Made by a program: the position numbers and the translations under genes. This document shows positions 1,213-7,603 of a DNA stretch of 7,603 nucleotides, in pieces. The notes under the pieces are model-generated. The model did not search any database. It worked only from the letters and a program-made list of their open reading frames with translations, and was not told the DNA's origin. Origin of the DNA: an uncultured bacterium (lineage in GTDB: Bacteria; CAIJMQ01); the NCBI GenBank assembly GCA_903821905.1, contig CAIJMQ010000008.1, forward strand, positions 1 through 7,603. Reading direction: 5' to 3'. Positions within the stretch are counted from its first letter, which is position 1. Each line of letters begins with the position of its first letter.

Positions 1213-1240
1213 TTGACAAATTAAGTTTGGGGTATATAAT
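1213..1240 (+). promoter_or_regulatory. Consensus sigma-70 promoter for the Cys-rich/TPR operon
   Basis: A perfect TTGACA (1213-1218) and a perfect TATAAT (1235-1240) are separated by 16 bases. Transcription would start near 1247, giving a leader of about 80 bases before the ATG at 1329. No other convincing promoter was seen between the stop at 1166 and 1329. Two exact hexamers in an AT-rich intergenic region suggest strong, perhaps constitutive, expression. No operator-like repeat was seen around it. Confidence 0.75.
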
Positions 1241-1328
1241 GAAACACAGTGCAAAGAAAGAAATATCAAACAATCTCAGTAATCTCGTTCAAGAATCCCC
1301 GTATAATAATTAAAAAAGGAGGCTGTTT

Positions 1329-2324
1329 ATGAAAAACGGTCTTGGTCGTTCCTTACCAGTAATCCTAATTGGCATATTAGTCTTATCAATTTTTTCCGTA
1401 TGGCTCTATGAGGTGAACTGTGGTGAAGCAATAGTTGGTGGAGGTGGAGGTGGTGGAGGAGGTGGTGGTGGTTGCAGTGGCTGCGGTTGTTGTACAACAG
1501 GGCAATTCTGTTGCAATAATCAGTGCTATGCTAATGATAGTGGTACGTGTTGTTCAAAGATAGTAGACGGTACTACCGTTCAAAGTTACTGTAGTGGAGG
1601 TTATTGTTGTAATGGTGTTTGCTTTAAAACAGATACAAATAATGATAGTTGTCAGGACCAGTTTTGTTGTGAAGGCTATGGCACCCTTTGCACCCTTTGC
1701 CCATGGGGCAAAATCTGTTGCGAGGGAGGGCCTTCCAACGGCCCATGTTGTACTAAAATAGTGATTGATCCAGAGAGTGGTTCAGGTTCAGGCGTTAGTC
1801 ATATTCCCTGTGATTATTGTCAGATTTGTGGAGAGAATGGGGATTGTATAGGTACTTGTGGTACCGGACAGAGTTGTTGTCCTAGTAGATGGGGTGGCTA
1901 CTGTAGGAATGAAATTACAGAAACAAGTTGTTGTGGATGGGCAAACGAATGTTTGTGTGTAAATAGCCAATGTAGGGTACCAACTTCATCACCTTTTGTG
2001 TTGACTGAGATGAGAAACCCCAGTTATGGTGTCTATCTAAGAACTGCTGTTCATACTCTCTCGGAAACATCTGGAGATATGTCTGTCCCAATTCAAAAAG
2101 GTGGCATTCCTATAAATGAATATTTTATTGAAACTTGTCCGGGCTTAGTACCACATAATGGGCATACTCTTCCAGACGGAACTTTTAGCGATAATCTAGA
2201 AACTGCACGTAACCAAGAAGAGTGTCACGCAAAACAGGTTATTAAAACTAACGGCTGCGATATAGGACATTATTATGTAAACTACTACCCTTGGGGGGTA
2301 GACAAAACTGGTGGTGATTTTTAA
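1329..2324 (+). CDS. Secreted protein with polyglycine run and cysteine-rich domain, function unknown
   Basis: The 331-residue product starts at an ATG six bases after a perfect AGGAGG (1317-1322). Residues 8-27 form a hydrophobic signal or anchor segment. There is no proper lipobox around C31, and a signal peptidase I site after GEA (34) is possible. Then come twelve consecutive glycines (37-48) and a domain (49-215) in which 35 of 167 residues are cysteine, including nine Cys-Cys pairs. A loose unit such as GQFCCNNQC, GGYCCNGVC, GKICC and GQSCCPSRWGGYC recurs. The last ~115 residues have only three cysteines and end in an aromatic-rich tail. The pattern implies a compact disulfide-rich (or, if reduced, metal-binding) extracellular protein; a structural or surface role is inference. 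No enzyme motif is seen. The next gene follows after only a few bases, so the two are co-transcribed. Confidence 0.82.
   Translation: MKNGLGRSLPVILIGILVLSIFSVWLYEVNCGEAIVGGGGGGGGGGGGCSGCGCCTTGQFCCNNQCYANDSGTCCSKIVDGTTVQSYCSGGYCCNGVCFKTDTNNDSCQDQFCCEGYGTLCTLCPWGKICCEGGPSNGPCCTKIVIDPESGSGSGVSHIPCDYCQICGENGDCIGTCGTGQSCCPSRWGGYCRNEITETSCCGWANECLCVNSQCRVPTSSPFVLTEMRNPSYGVYLRTAVHTLSETSGDMSVPIQKGGIPINEYFIETCPGLVPHNGHTLPDGTFSDNLETARNQEECHAKQVIKTNGCDIGHYYVNYYPWGVDKTGGDF
1437..1472 (+). repeat. Twelve-codon glycine run (GGT/GGA)
   Basis: Twelve successive glycine codons, a mixture of GGT and GGA, form a 36-base G-rich tract. It sits right after the predicted export signal and immediately before the first cysteine cluster (CSGCGCC). 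The protein-level run is a flexible spacer or glycine-rich patch. The irregular codon mixture argues for selection on the amino-acid run rather than simple recent trinucleotide slippage, although GGN tracts can still vary in length between strains. Confidence 0.9.
1682..1712 (+). repeat. Tandem 9-mer followed by a perfect short hairpin inside the Cys-rich gene
   Basis: CACCCTTTG occurs twice head to tail (1682-1690, 1691-1699) and encodes the repeated Thr-Leu-Cys. The last bases form the left arm of a perfect inverted repeat, TTTGCCC (1696-1702), ATG spacer, GGGCAAA (1706-1712). The duplication looks like a recent slippage that added one TLC unit. The hairpin has no T-tract and lies within a coding region, so it is not called a terminator. 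Confidence 0.6.
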
Positions 2325-2331: not shown

Positions 2332-2339
2332 ACATGAAT

Positions 2340-3359
2340 ATGAAGAGAGCACTTTTATTTATATGGATGTTAGGTATACTGCTTTTAAACTCATCGCTAT
2401 CTGTTTCTGAAGATAATATTGATGAAGATATTGTGTATAAAGCTCAACGAAAATTAGAGAGTAATGTCGGGCTTATACAAACTGTCTTAGAGAAATATCC
2501 TGATGACGCTGAAATACACCGAGGAGCTGCAGAACTTTATAATGGTATCGGATTAATTGTTAAAAAAGATCCAGCCATCTATGAATACCGAAAAGCAATA
2601 GAATTGAATCCGAAAGATATTACTTATTATACGGGTTTAGGAATGGCATTGTGGTATAAGTACAAGCACGACTATACATACGAAAAAACTGATGACCCTT
2701 CCGAGTTAATAGAAGCCTTAGAGGTAGGAGAAGAGAAGGAACCTAATAATGCATTTTACGATTATATGTGGGCTTCTGTATATTTAATGCAAGGAAAAGA
2801 AAAGGAAGGAATAAAGAAAATTGAAGATGCTCTTAATAAAAAGTATCTTAAACAACATTGGCAGCCTAGGATAAAATCAAAAATTAAGATTCTCGAAGAA
2901 ATGGGTTGTTTTACCAGCACAGAGATAAAAATCAATGTTCCTTATGGTGCAGGAGGCACCGATGAAATGTTAGGAAAGATTATTAGTCATCTAAAGAAGT
3001 TAGGCGAAGGTAAAGAATCTCAGGGGGCATGGGAAGGTGCAGCCGAAATCTACAAAACAATGGTGAAGATGGCAGGACAGGTTAGAAGCGATGCTTGGTT
3101 ACTGGGCACTTCGCATATGAGTAATTACTATGCAAAAACCGCATATAATGGATTATTACGTTGTTATAAAAAATTAGGAATGGAAAACGAGCAATACCCA
3201 ATAGAACAAGAACTCAAAACTCTCGAAGATGTAATGAATAAAGAATCGGCTGCTTGTGATAAAGGTGCATTATTATTATCTACTCTTAAAGGTGATGAAT
3301 TAGATAAACTTCTTGACGAAATTATAGAAAAAGGTGAAATCAAGGCATCGGGTTTGTAA
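2340..3359 (+). CDS. Secreted tetratricopeptide-repeat (TPR) protein
   Basis: The 339-residue product begins with a signal peptide (MKRALLFIW, hydrophobic to about residue 18, likely cut after SVS near residue 23) and has no lipobox. The middle is helical and TPR-like. The segment from about 56 to 93 (AEIHRGAAELYNGIG through KAIELNPKD) reads as one repeat, and about 137-168 (YDYMWASVYLMQGKEKEGIKKIEDAL) as another; a more divergent repeat lies between them. A helical C-terminal half (about 185-339) contains AWEGAAEIYKTMVKM, also repeat-like but unassigned. TPR proteins bind partner proteins, so an extracytoplasmic scaffold or chaperone for the Cys-rich protein encoded just upstream is a reasonable guess from the operon, not a demonstrated role. 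The ATG at 2334 would add two residues. No enzymatic motif is visible. Confidence 0.85.
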   Translation: MKRALLFIWMLGILLLNSSLSVSEDNIDEDIVYKAQRKLESNVGLIQTVLEKYPDDAEIHRGAAELYNGIGLIVKKDPAIYEYRKAIELNPKDITYYTGLGMALWYKYKHDYTYEKTDDPSELIEALEVGEEKEPNNAFYDYMWASVYLMQGKEKEGIKKIEDALNKKYLKQHWQPRIKSKIKILEEMGCFTSTEIKINVPYGAGGTDEMLGKIISHLKKLGEGKESQGAWEGAAEIYKTMVKMAGQVRSDAWLLGTSHMSNYYAKTAYNGLLRCYKKLGMENEQYPIEQELKTLEDVMNKESAACDKGALLLSTLKGDELDKLLDEIIEKGEIKASGL

Positions 3360-3523: not shown

Positions 3524-3540
3524 ATTGTGTGTATTTTTAG

Positions 3541-3546
3541 AAAGGA
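3541..3546 (+). promoter_or_regulatory. Ribosome binding site deciding the start of the GH5 gene
   Basis: AAAGGA lies ten bases before the ATG at 3557. An in-frame GTG at 3527 would add ten residues (MCIFRKEILR) in front of the signal peptide and place this site inside the gene. The ATG start gives a normal signal peptide, so 3557 is preferred. Confidence 0.55.
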
Positions 3547-3556
3547 AATCTTAAGA

Positions 3557-5305
3557 ATGAGAAGAGTGTTTTTAAAGCCAATTATTGTTTTAGCTGCTAT
3601 AGTGATATTTTTAGGTAGTTCTCATGTATATTCTGCCGAGCAAATAGGGCAGACTTTTATATCCATCAACCCACAAGAAGCAGTTAAAAATATGTCTCCT
3701 GGCTGGAATTTGGGTGATGCATTAGATGGAATTCCCACCGAAGGTGAATGTTCCTGGTGCAATCCCCCTGTAGAAGAAGATATTTTTGACTATGTAAAGA
3801 AAGCAGGTTTCAAGACCGTCCGTATACCTGTAACATGGGCTTACCATATCGGTCCTGCACCTGATTATAAAGTTGACCCCCAATGGATGGACAGAGTAGA
3901 ACAGGTTGTTGATTGGGCATTAAAGAGAGATTTTTATGTAATCATCGATGCTCATCACGATTCTAGTGTTTGGTTTTCCAAAATGGCTATTGACCCTGAA
4001 ACAGGCAGATATGTAAACGATTATGACAATCAAATAATCAAGCTTGAAGAGCTCTGGCGACAGATAGCAGAAAGATTCAACAGAAAAAATGAGAAATTGA
4101 TATTTGAGATTGTGAGCGAACCTCTTGACGGAGATCGGGAAGCTAAACTTGAAAAACCAACGAATCTGGATAATCCCGAAGTAAAGCATAACTTAACTGC
4201 TGAACAAATGAATGACTTAAATCGGAGGATTTTGAGAATTATCCGTGCATCGGGGGGCTATAGTGACAAGCGTCTTGTGATGGTATGTGGTTTGTCTGAT
4301 GACAGTAAAAAAACATTGCAATTTTTTGACGCACCAAATGATAAATATATAATACTTACGGTTCATTACTATGAACCATGGGATTTCATAAGCAACTGGT
4401 GGGGAAGAATCACTTGGGGTAATGAAAAGGATAAACAAGATCCTGATTACATTTTTAGACGACTTGGTGAGACATTTGTTGAAAACAGATTGCCGGTTGT
4501 TATCGGGGAATGGAGCACTTCATTTAAAATAGATAAGCTTTCAAGATGGTATTATCATAATTATATTGTTAAGACTGCTTATAAGTATGGTATTCCTTGT
4601 GTATTGTGGGACAATGGAAAAGATTACTTTGACAGACAAAAGAGGATTTGGCGGGACGAAACTATTAAAGATATTGTTGTAAATGCAGGGTTGGGCATCC
4701 CTAATTCTTTTGTATTTCCTGCGGATAATTATTTTAGGGAAAAAACTAATGTAGAAGATTTGACGGTTAAACTTGAATTAAACGGCAATGAATTAGTTGA
4801 TATTTATAATGGTGAGGAAAAGCTGGTTAAGGAAAAGGACTATGTATCGGATACTCCAAATTCAAGTGTAACAATAAACAAGAATTATCTTTCAAAACTA
4901 CTTGAATCTGAGAAAACTGGTGTAACTGCAACTCTAAAATTTGATTTTTCACAAGGGACAGATATCCCAGTAGACATTATCAAATACGATTTACCAAAAT
5001 TCTCACAAGATTCAATAATCGTTGACAAGACCAAAGGCGAAATTGAATCTGATATAGTGATTCCTGTATCTTTTAACGGTACCAAATTGGCTACTGTTGG
5101 TGTGGTAGATGAAGCCACTAAAAAATCTGTTGTATATTCATGGACACCTTATCTGCAGATGAATGGGCATTTTGATTACAATGATAAGGAAATTATCCTA
5201 AAGAAGAGATTATTAAACTTATTGAAATCAGATTCCTTAATCACCTTTGAATTCTATCCTAGAAGTGTCAAAGTTGAGATGAAGGTAAAAGTTTTGAAAG
5301 AGTAA
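3557..5305 (+). CDS. Secreted GH5 endo-beta-glucanase with X2 and CBM46-like modules
   Basis: The 582-residue enzyme has a signal peptide (MRRVFLKP plus a hydrophobic core, cut near VYSA at residue 27). A GH5 barrel follows at about 30-385: MSPGWNLGDALDGIPTEG, GFKTVRIPVTW with Arg89, VIIDAHHD with His133/134, acid/base Glu188 in FEIVSEP, His270 and Tyr272 in HYYEPW, nucleophile Glu318 in VVIGEWS, and Trp351 in LWDNG. Residues about 395-480 match the X2 immunoglobulin-like module (LTVKLELNGN, NGEEKL, DYV, TLKFDFSQGTD). About 481-582 resembles a CBM46 module. This order is known in GH5 subfamily 4 glucanases such as the Bacillus halodurans Cel5B type, which hydrolyse beta-1,4-, mixed-linkage glucan or xyloglucan. 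Oddities: Ser replaces the usual Asn before the acid/base Glu, Asp replaces Asn in WNLGN, and Cys replaces Gly in SWGNPP. Exact substrate is uncertain. Confidence 0.92.
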   Translation: MRRVFLKPIIVLAAIVIFLGSSHVYSAEQIGQTFISINPQEAVKNMSPGWNLGDALDGIPTEGECSWCNPPVEEDIFDYVKKAGFKTVRIPVTWAYHIGPAPDYKVDPQWMDRVEQVVDWALKRDFYVIIDAHHDSSVWFSKMAIDPETGRYVNDYDNQIIKLEELWRQIAERFNRKNEKLIFEIVSEPLDGDREAKLEKPTNLDNPEVKHNLTAEQMNDLNRRILRIIRASGGYSDKRLVMVCGLSDDSKKTLQFFDAPNDKYIILTVHYYEPWDFISNWWGRITWGNEKDKQDPDYIFRRLGETFVENRLPVVIGEWSTSFKIDKLSRWYYHNYIVKTAYKYGIPCVLWDNGKDYFDRQKRIWRDETIKDIVVNAGLGIPNSFVFPADNYFREKTNVEDLTVKLELNGNELVDIYNGEEKLVKEKDYVSDTPNSSVTINKNYLSKLLESEKTGVTATLKFDFSQGTDIPVDIIKYDLPKFSQDSIIVDKTKGEIESDIVIPVSFNGTKLATVGVVDEATKKSVVYSWTPYLQMNGHFDYNDKEIILKKRLLNLLKSDSLITFEFYPRSVKVEMKVKVLKE

Positions 5306-5503: not shown

Positions 5504-5577
5504 AGAATAAGCAACTAAACAGCGATGCTTGGATGGGATTCGATGTGCTGCGGAGTGACTAAAAATTTATTCAGTTA

Positions 5578-5618
5578 GCATTACGAATGCATTGCTCTAC
5601 CAACTGAGCTATCCCGGC
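5578..5618 (-). pseudogene. tRNA-Thr(CGT) 5' half, 3' half missing or scrambled
   Basis: Read on the minus strand from 5618, the sequence is a textbook tRNA 5' half: acceptor strand GCCGGGA, TA, D-arm GCTC-AGTTGGTA-GAGC, then anticodon loop TTCGTAA with anticodon CGT (complement of 5583-5585) for threonine. Anticodon-stem pairing holds for only the three loop-proximal pairs. The match stops near 5578. Further on (around 5536-5544 on the + strand) GGGATTCGA recalls a T-loop, but it is about 21 bases too far away and lacks the opposite T-stem strand. The nearest acceptor-like sequence matches TCCCGGC poorly, and no proper TCCCGGC occurs back to the GH5 gene. It is therefore called a fragment rather than a working tRNA, and a split or intron-bearing gene was not supported. 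Confidence 0.7.
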
Positions 5619-5834: not shown

Positions 5835-6230
5835 ATGTATATAAAGATAAATTCTGACAGCGGAGTGCCTTTATACCTGCAGATTGTGAAACAGGTGAAA
5901 TATCTTGTGGCATGCGGAGCTCTTAAATCGGGAGATAAATTACCTGCAGTTAGAGAATTAGCAATTCAGCTGCGGATAAATCCCAACACGGTTGCTAAGG
6001 CATACCGCGAATTACAACACGAAAAAATTATTGATAGTAAATGGGGTGAAGGTAATTTTATTTCGGAAGAAGTAAAAAATGTATCTGAAACAGAGAAGGG
6101 AAAAATCATATCAGAAATCTTGGATAATGCAATCCAACAGGCAGTGGATATCGGTCTTTCAAAAGAAGAATTAACTAAACTTTTTTCTCAACAACTCAAA
6201 ACAACAAAACCGAAAGGAGCGCAAAAATGA
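5835..6230 (+). CDS. GntR-family (YtrA subfamily) transcriptional regulator
   Basis: The 131-residue protein is a full-length YtrA-type GntR repressor. The winged helix-turn-helix occupies about residues 10-77, with the family signatures GVPLYLQIVKQVKYL, SGDKLPAVRELA, NPNTVAKAYRELQ (recognition helix) and a wing ending GEGNFIS. A short helical tail (about 85-125) replaces the large effector-binding domain of other GntR groups, which is diagnostic of YtrA proteins. Relatives control adjacent ABC transporter genes, often responding to cell-envelope stress or antibiotics; the signal here is unknown. The gene lies 21 bases after the predicted transcription start, with a palindromic operator over the -10 box, so autorepression is likely. 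Its ribosome site is weak (AGAAG, close to the ATG). The stop codon overlaps the start of the next gene as ATGA, indicating translational coupling. Confidence 0.93.
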   Translation: MYIKINSDSGVPLYLQIVKQVKYLVACGALKSGDKLPAVRELAIQLRINPNTVAKAYRELQHEKIIDSKWGEGNFISEEVKNVSETEKGKIISEILDNAIQQAVDIGLSKEELTKLFSQQLKTTKPKGAQK

Positions 6231-7603
6231 AAGCTCTAATCTGGAAAGAATGGCGAGAACAGCGAATTTTTCTACTGTTGGCTGTCATAATTCTTATAAG
6301 TATTAATATGGGCAGTATTATATACCTTAATATGCCCTCTAAAACTACGGTAGACTCTTTATCTTTATATAGATTAGACACTATCAATTATTACAACCTT
6401 TTCTTGGGATGGGTAATCCTGCCTTTGCTTTTTGCTCTTATTTTGGGTGCAACCCCTTTTGTAAAAGAATTTTCAAATAATACACAGGATTTTCTTATTC
6501 AAAGACCAATAAGTACGGCAAAAATATTCTGGCTCAAATTTTTCTTTGGCATTTTTTTACTTTTGTTGATTATTCAACTTTGTCATTTAGTTTTATATGT
6601 CCCCGCTTCTTCTTTTAAGATGCAAATATCAGCTCCCGATTTTAAATCTCCCACTCCTCTTATTATGTTCTATTTACTATCTCTTTTAATATATTCTTCT
6701 ACATTCTTTTCCTCTTTATTATTAAAAAGAGAATTACCAGCGATGCTCTCCTCACTGCTTGCAATAGTTATCGGGATATTATATATCTTACCCCTTTATC
6801 TGATTTTATTTATTATCCTACCTCCTAAGCAATTGCAATTTCTATTTTCGGGGGTAGGGGACGACATAACAGTTTATTATGTCCCAGCATCCATTTTATT
6901 TATAGGTTTTGCGCTCTTTAGTTTTGTTATATGGCAAAAAGCAATTTCCAGGGGACTAAAACCAGCCAAAGTATTTTTCTCTATTACTGGGATAATATTT
7001 CTAATTTATCTTGTACCCCATACAATTCTTAATTTCTCGGCAGGATTGGATTTAAGGAGAGCTATAAAAGAAGCAGAAACATCCGGTATTAAATTAAAAA
7101 TAGAAGAAATTATCCCTCCTCCTGTTCCAGATGAAGAAAATGCTGCTTTAGTTTATCAGGAAGCTTTCAATTTAGTGGGAGAATTGCGTAAAACATACAA
7201 GGATGAATGGGAATATATGCCTTATGAAAGCTACAAAGTTAAACTAGAGGACTTAACAAAAGAACAGAAAAGAACTATTGCTAAACTATTTTTCGAAGAT
7301 ACGGACTTTATTAAACTTTATACCTTGATAGAAAAAGCAGTTAATCTACCATCATGTCGGTTCGATATTAAATATGAAGATGGACCTGCCATGTTATTAC
7401 CTGATCTCAATAAAATGCGGCAATTAGCACAATTAGTGGCAGCACGAACATATATATTGACTGAAGAGAAAAAATATAAAGAAGCATTGGAATCTTTTTG
7501 TGTTGGTCTAAGAATGGGAGAATCTTTAAAAAATGAACCTACACTTATCTCTCAACTTGTTAGATTGGCTTTGGACGGAATTGTAATGGAATCCCTTCAG
7601 CCA
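6227..7603 (+). CDS. ABC-2 type permease fused to a C-terminal soluble domain (3' end missing)
   Basis: An uninterrupted frame of 459 codons runs from the ATG at 6227 to the window edge, so the C-terminus is missing. AAAGGAG (6213-6219), seven bases upstream, is a good ribosome site. The N-terminus MKALIWKEWREQR is typical of ABC-2 permeases (an amphipathic helix before the first membrane segment). Membrane segments are seen at about 14-33, 58-78, 101-125, 144-166, 172-198, 218-236 and 249-269, seven in all. FVKEFSNNTQDFLIQRPIS (78-96) fits the cytoplasmic loop of that family. From 271 on the protein is soluble and helical, beginning with IPPPVPDEENAALVYQEAF (296-314) and including EEKKYKEALESFCVGLRMGE (413-432). 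With the N-terminus inside, seven segments would place this domain outside the membrane. Overlap with the YtrA-type gene indicates a regulated export or envelope-stress transporter; substrate unknown. No ATPase is encoded between the two genes. Confidence 0.85.
   Translation, partial: MKALIWKEWREQRIFLLLAVIILISINMGSIIYLNMPSKTTVDSLSLYRLDTINYYNLFLGWVILPLLFALILGATPFVKEFSNNTQDFLIQRPISTAKIFWLKFFFGIFLLLLIIQLCHLVLYVPASSFKMQISAPDFKSPTPLIMFYLLSLLIYSSTFFSSLLLKRELPAMLSSLLAIVIGILYILPLYLILFIILPPKQLQFLFSGVGDDITVYYVPASILFIGFALFSFVIWQKAISRGLKPAKVFFSITGIIFLIYLVPHTILNFSAGLDLRRAIKEAETSGIKLKIEEIIPPPVPDEENAALVYQEAFNLVGELRKTYKDEWEYMPYESYKVKLEDLTKEQKRTIAKLFFEDTDFIKLYTLIEKAVNLPSCRFDIKYEDGPAMLLPDLNKMRQLAQLVAARTYILTEEKKYKEALESFCVGLRMGESLKNEPTLISQLVRLALDGIVMESLQP

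Follow-up and report, generated by a model that had tools for sequence, protein, structure and literature searches.

The gene at positions 1329..2324 of the analysed window, a complete contig of 7,603 bases from a metagenome-assembled genome (MAG), encodes a cysteine-rich protein of 331 amino acids that matches no family and is an orphan in the collections searched. With somewhat better than even confidence, it can be regarded as a structural or binding protein that is exported, rich in disulfides and restricted to its lineage, most likely a disulfide-hardened protein of the envelope or the extracellular space. The protein is unusual, yet there is no evidence of a new mechanism. As counted in the original prediction, it has 35 cysteines within 167 residues, nine vicinal cysteine pairs (CC) and a run of twelve glycines (Gly12), the total over the whole chain being 39 cysteines. 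In the Cys-rich region (residues 49-215; 1473..1973), one residue in five (21%) is a cysteine, while long ORFs sampled from the same MAG (n = 100) have a mean of 1.2% and a maximum of 5.6%. Features are on the forward strand unless otherwise stated.

The MAG (1.30 Mb, 121 contigs) is 84% complete and 0.4% contaminated. Since the GC content and the tetranucleotide profile of the contig fall within the spread of the other sampled MAG contigs (a sample of stretches, four of which read as N), the contig is probably correctly binned, and contamination was rejected as its origin. A sigma-70-type promoter, TTGACA-16-TATAAT, can be found at 1213..1240, where all 12 of the 12 consensus positions agree (a consensus match and not a mapped start), and a ribosome-binding site AGGAGG at 1317..1322, 6 nt 5' of the ATG; the promoter and the perfect AGGAGG first proposed are thus borne out as sequence matches. 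The frame looks coding, its codon use being nearer to that of the MAG ORFs than that of the other frames: its synonymous-codon score is +0.094 (measured against the 100 sampled long ORFs), whereas both other forward frames score negatively and the reverse strand reaches at most +0.067. Promoter, ribosome-binding site and codon use all weigh against a degenerate or low-constraint orphan, i.e., a repeat gene without selected function, as do the even number of cysteines past the Gly run (38) and the divergence of the repeated modules at the DNA level. Such a gene would account for the lack of any relative in three genomes of the same family and for a Gly run made of simple repeats, and is left with a slim chance.

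Read by eye, the N-terminus contains an apparent export signal (1329..1430; K2/R7, hydrophobic from about residue 8 to 27), and signal peptidase may cleave behind G-E-A (residue 34). With this signal-like N-terminus, the protein is apparently exported, and the putative signal may also be an uncleaved anchor. It is followed by Gly12 (residues 37-48; 1437..1472), written in mixed GGT/GGA codons, by the Cys-rich region and by a C-terminal region of 116 amino acids (1974..2321), which has 3 cysteines and for which no relative was found.

The Gly run had been considered special in itself. However, a search of the class with the DNA of the run recovered two further proteins of the MAG and two in genomes of the same family, and in all four the glycines are followed, directly or a few residues on, by CFIATA, which corresponds to CFI-box-CTERM (NF041770; L061 2440-4434, L062 3877-6414, L063 3835-6048 and L064 1-4305). 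The carriers of these tails are a TolB/PD40-type propeller, an MXAN_6640-type metalloprotease, a papain-like protease (identified by eye) and a subtilase-like protein. The run is less special because the order of a Gly run and then cysteine recurs in this lineage, in the same genome and in relatives, and the simplest reading of Gly12 is a flexible spacer. In the CFI-box-CTERM proteins the run is C-terminal on large proteins, whereas in the window protein it is N-terminal, after the signal, and neither a CFI box nor an NF041770 match can be found there. In the sister family, what comes after the Gly runs is CFI(S/H) plus a very short terminus rich in Arg and Trp (L068 385-4998, L070 599-4141, L071 4221-8501); these tails, which lack the full CFI box, may be a shorter variant or frameshifted copies. 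Gly run and Cys-Gly-rich core also recall a RiPP-like precursor, the cysteines of which would be converted into thiazoles as in microcin B17, where the likeness (Gly run plus CSGCGCC) is superficial. With a Sec-type signal, a length of 331 amino acids, no modification genes in the window and no YcaO found in the 84% complete genome (the same search was positive in 5 of 14 control genomes), this origin is scarcely credible.

Within the Cys-rich region, a short module C-x2-G-x2-CC-x(2-8)-C is repeated about four to five times, with CxxGQxCCxGxC as its consensus. Four modules are delimited here: module 1, CCTTGQFCCNNQCYANDSGTCC (1488..1553); module 2, YCSGGYCCNGVCFKTDTNNDSCQ (1587..1655); module 3, LCPWGKICCEGGPSNGPCC (1695..1751); and module 4, TCGTGQSCCPSRWGGYCRNEITETSCC (1854..1934). 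The nine vicinal pairs are exact as a count, but their excess over chance is weak: shuffles of a region with 35 cysteines in 167 residues give 5.9 +/- 1.6 pairs (P=0.06), so that the number of pairs is only weakly above what the cysteine content would yield. The real excess over composition is the repetition of the module and not the number of CC. C-x2-G-x2-CC is seen 3 times where 0.2 would be expected (P=0.0008). For G-[QKG]-x-CC, which occurs 4 times, P=0.00015. Both P values are optimistic because the patterns were picked once the sequence had been read. No long direct repeats between the modules were found at the DNA level, and there is therefore no sign of recent duplication.

The description of the protein as being of no known family holds across Pfam, NCBIfam, PHROGs, PDB sequences, genomes and contig scans. 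Profile searches with the whole protein and its pieces matched no known family in Pfam, NCBIfam or PHROGs, and the Cys-rich region, whole and in three pieces, had no Pfam match at E up to 10, Stig1 included; the composition filters of HMMER are harsh on such Cys-rich sequence. Against PDB sequences, the protein and its pieces gave nothing convincing, most of the weak matches lying on glycine runs, e.g., in the linkers of scFv and fusion proteins. Scans of GTDB contigs, IMG/VR viral contigs, phages and plasmids returned no relative; these were seeded by six short near-exact peptide stretches, so that distant relatives may have escaped them. Searches of 98 and of 386 bacterial genomes, the latter set including six others of the same class, three of them of the same family, retrieved the gene itself and four marginal matches (three at E 0.004-0.007 and one profile match at E 0.0015), which were rejected as relatives since on reading they appear to be short ORFs or ordinary genes translated in the wrong frame. 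Regarding the structure, an unaligned AlphaFold model has a mean pLDDT of 41; the twenty residues at its start are modelled best (pLDDT of about 70), as a low-confidence hairpin across module 1, and a fold search with this low-confidence model gave nothing meaningful. Since no homologue was found, no conservation stands behind the pairing of any cysteine.

The cysteines had originally been ascribed tentatively either to disulfides or to metal binding, of which the former fits better and the latter has become less likely. CxC is scarce (at least as many are present in 99.7% of shuffles), CxxC is not enriched over shuffles, and neither CxxCH nor CxxCxxCxxxC occurs in the protein, a spacing which argues for disulfides over metal; the CC-x3-C hairpins and the even cysteine count are likewise consistent with disulfides. 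The MAG also encodes a protein resembling DsbA (Thioredoxin_4 4.7e-38, DSBA 7.4e-21), in which a CGFC site and, at the N-terminus, a hydrophobic segment can be recognised. An exported metal-binding protein, metallothionein-like or metal-sequestering, in which reduced thiols would hold soft metals, would agree with the 21% cysteine of the region, with a lifestyle that may be anaerobic and with the fact that VKOR was not found in the 84% complete MAG; if the lineage is anaerobic, the thiols might stay reduced in its envelope and be loaded with metal. Besides the spacing, the single His and 12 aromatic residues of the region, the apparent export together with the DsbA-like protein, and the lack of a metallothionein family match make this unlikely. 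Metallothioneins are rich in CxC and CxxC, have no signal and contain few aromatic residues. The window protein shares their very high cysteine content, but it is apparently exported, poor in CxC and endowed with aromatic residues, and was not retained as one of them. The absence of CxxCH and of CxxCxxCxxxC also disfavors a multihaem cytochrome and a ferredoxin, respectively.

Downstream, a gene for an apparently exported TPR-repeat protein (2334..3359; Pfam TPR_11, 9.4e-08) begins 9 nt past the stop codon with no terminator-like site in between, so that the two genes are probably co-transcribed. This part of the original prediction is supported by the gap; the products may also be functional partners. 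The TPR protein matches others solely via generic TPR repeats, and its predicted model is helical at low confidence (pLDDT 46). The next gene but one after that of the Cys-rich protein (3527-5305) encodes a cellulase of family GH5 that has CBM_X2 and CBM46 domains. The GTDB scan recovered a single relative of this cellulase, in Halalkalibacter urbisdiaboli (43% identity), and the enzyme may have been transferred from Bacillota. Upstream, the contig end cuts a Reg_prop (two-component regulator propeller) protein, the C-terminal part of which (3-1166) lies in the window. With this run of probably exported proteins, the Cys-rich protein could be an adhesive or a matrix or surface-coat component beside a secreted cellulase, either holding plant polymer or building a sheath. 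Such a function is compatible with the disulfide reading, to which it adds a role, but it rests on the neighborhood, in which 167 nt separate the TPR gene from the cellulase gene, and profile searches detected no carbohydrate-binding domain in the Cys-rich protein; we hold it to be doubtful. Further on (5835-7603), the gene of a GntR-family regulator overlaps with the beginning of that of an ABC-2-like membrane protein, which continues past the contig end. Rfam gave nothing at gathering scores on the whole window; below these, a degenerate tRNA-like sequence on the reverse strand (5526-5618; Rfam tRNA, 23.3 bits against a gathering score of 29; none by ARAGORN), with a well kept 5' half and a disrupted 3' half, may represent a broken tRNA or the scar of an integration.

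On the preferred reading, i.e., a disulfide-rich exported protein, the signal would take the chain through the Sec system, and Gly12, following this signal or a membrane anchor, would act as a flexible spacer. Each of about five modules C-x2-G-x2-CC-x(2-8)-C would fold into a small beta-hairpin fixed by disulfides, and these hairpins could together build a compact rod or bead resisting denaturation and proteolysis in the periplasm, at the surface or outside the cell. The membrane-anchored DsbA-like protein could oxidise the module cysteines, and the co-transcribed TPR protein may serve as an exported partner in folding, assembly or display.

Several known disulfide-rich families invite comparison. 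Stig1-like and similar secreted proteins bear short CCxGxC repeats, which the module consensus resembles, with no Pfam match at E up to 10. The disulfide connectivity of ICK/knottin proteins is I-IV, II-V, III-VI. The CC-centered hairpin spacing is common to these and to the modules, and their framework C-C-CC-C-C can be matched twice in the window protein, a number that 37% of shuffles also reach. In granulins, the 12-Cys pattern is C-x5,6-C-x5-CC-x8-CC-x6-CC-x5-CC-x4-C. The same CC-centered hairpin spacing as in granulin and mini-granulin modules is seen here, and C-x5-CC-x8-CC, as in the initial portion of granulin, occurs once, in module 3. Considering that this spacing alone arises in about 5% of shuffles and that the full 12-Cys pattern is absent, with no granulin profile or sequence match in Pfam or the PDB, a likeness of working and not membership is claimed. 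Granulins are ladders of stacked beta-hairpins held by disulfides (PMC11035057), and by analogy the Cys modules may work like granulin-type hairpin modules. At a low probability, they would constitute an independently evolved prokaryotic multi-module CC-hairpin (granulin/knottin-like) fold displayed on a stalk of polyglycine, for which the exported TPR protein would be a dedicated partner in assembly. Should the modules indeed be stacked disulfide hairpins, the question would arise of how up to nineteen disulfides get oxidised, no VKOR having been found; they would also represent a bacterial solution resembling those of granulins and knottins, from a lineage that is sparsely sampled and has a small genome, and could be a source of very stable small scaffolds.
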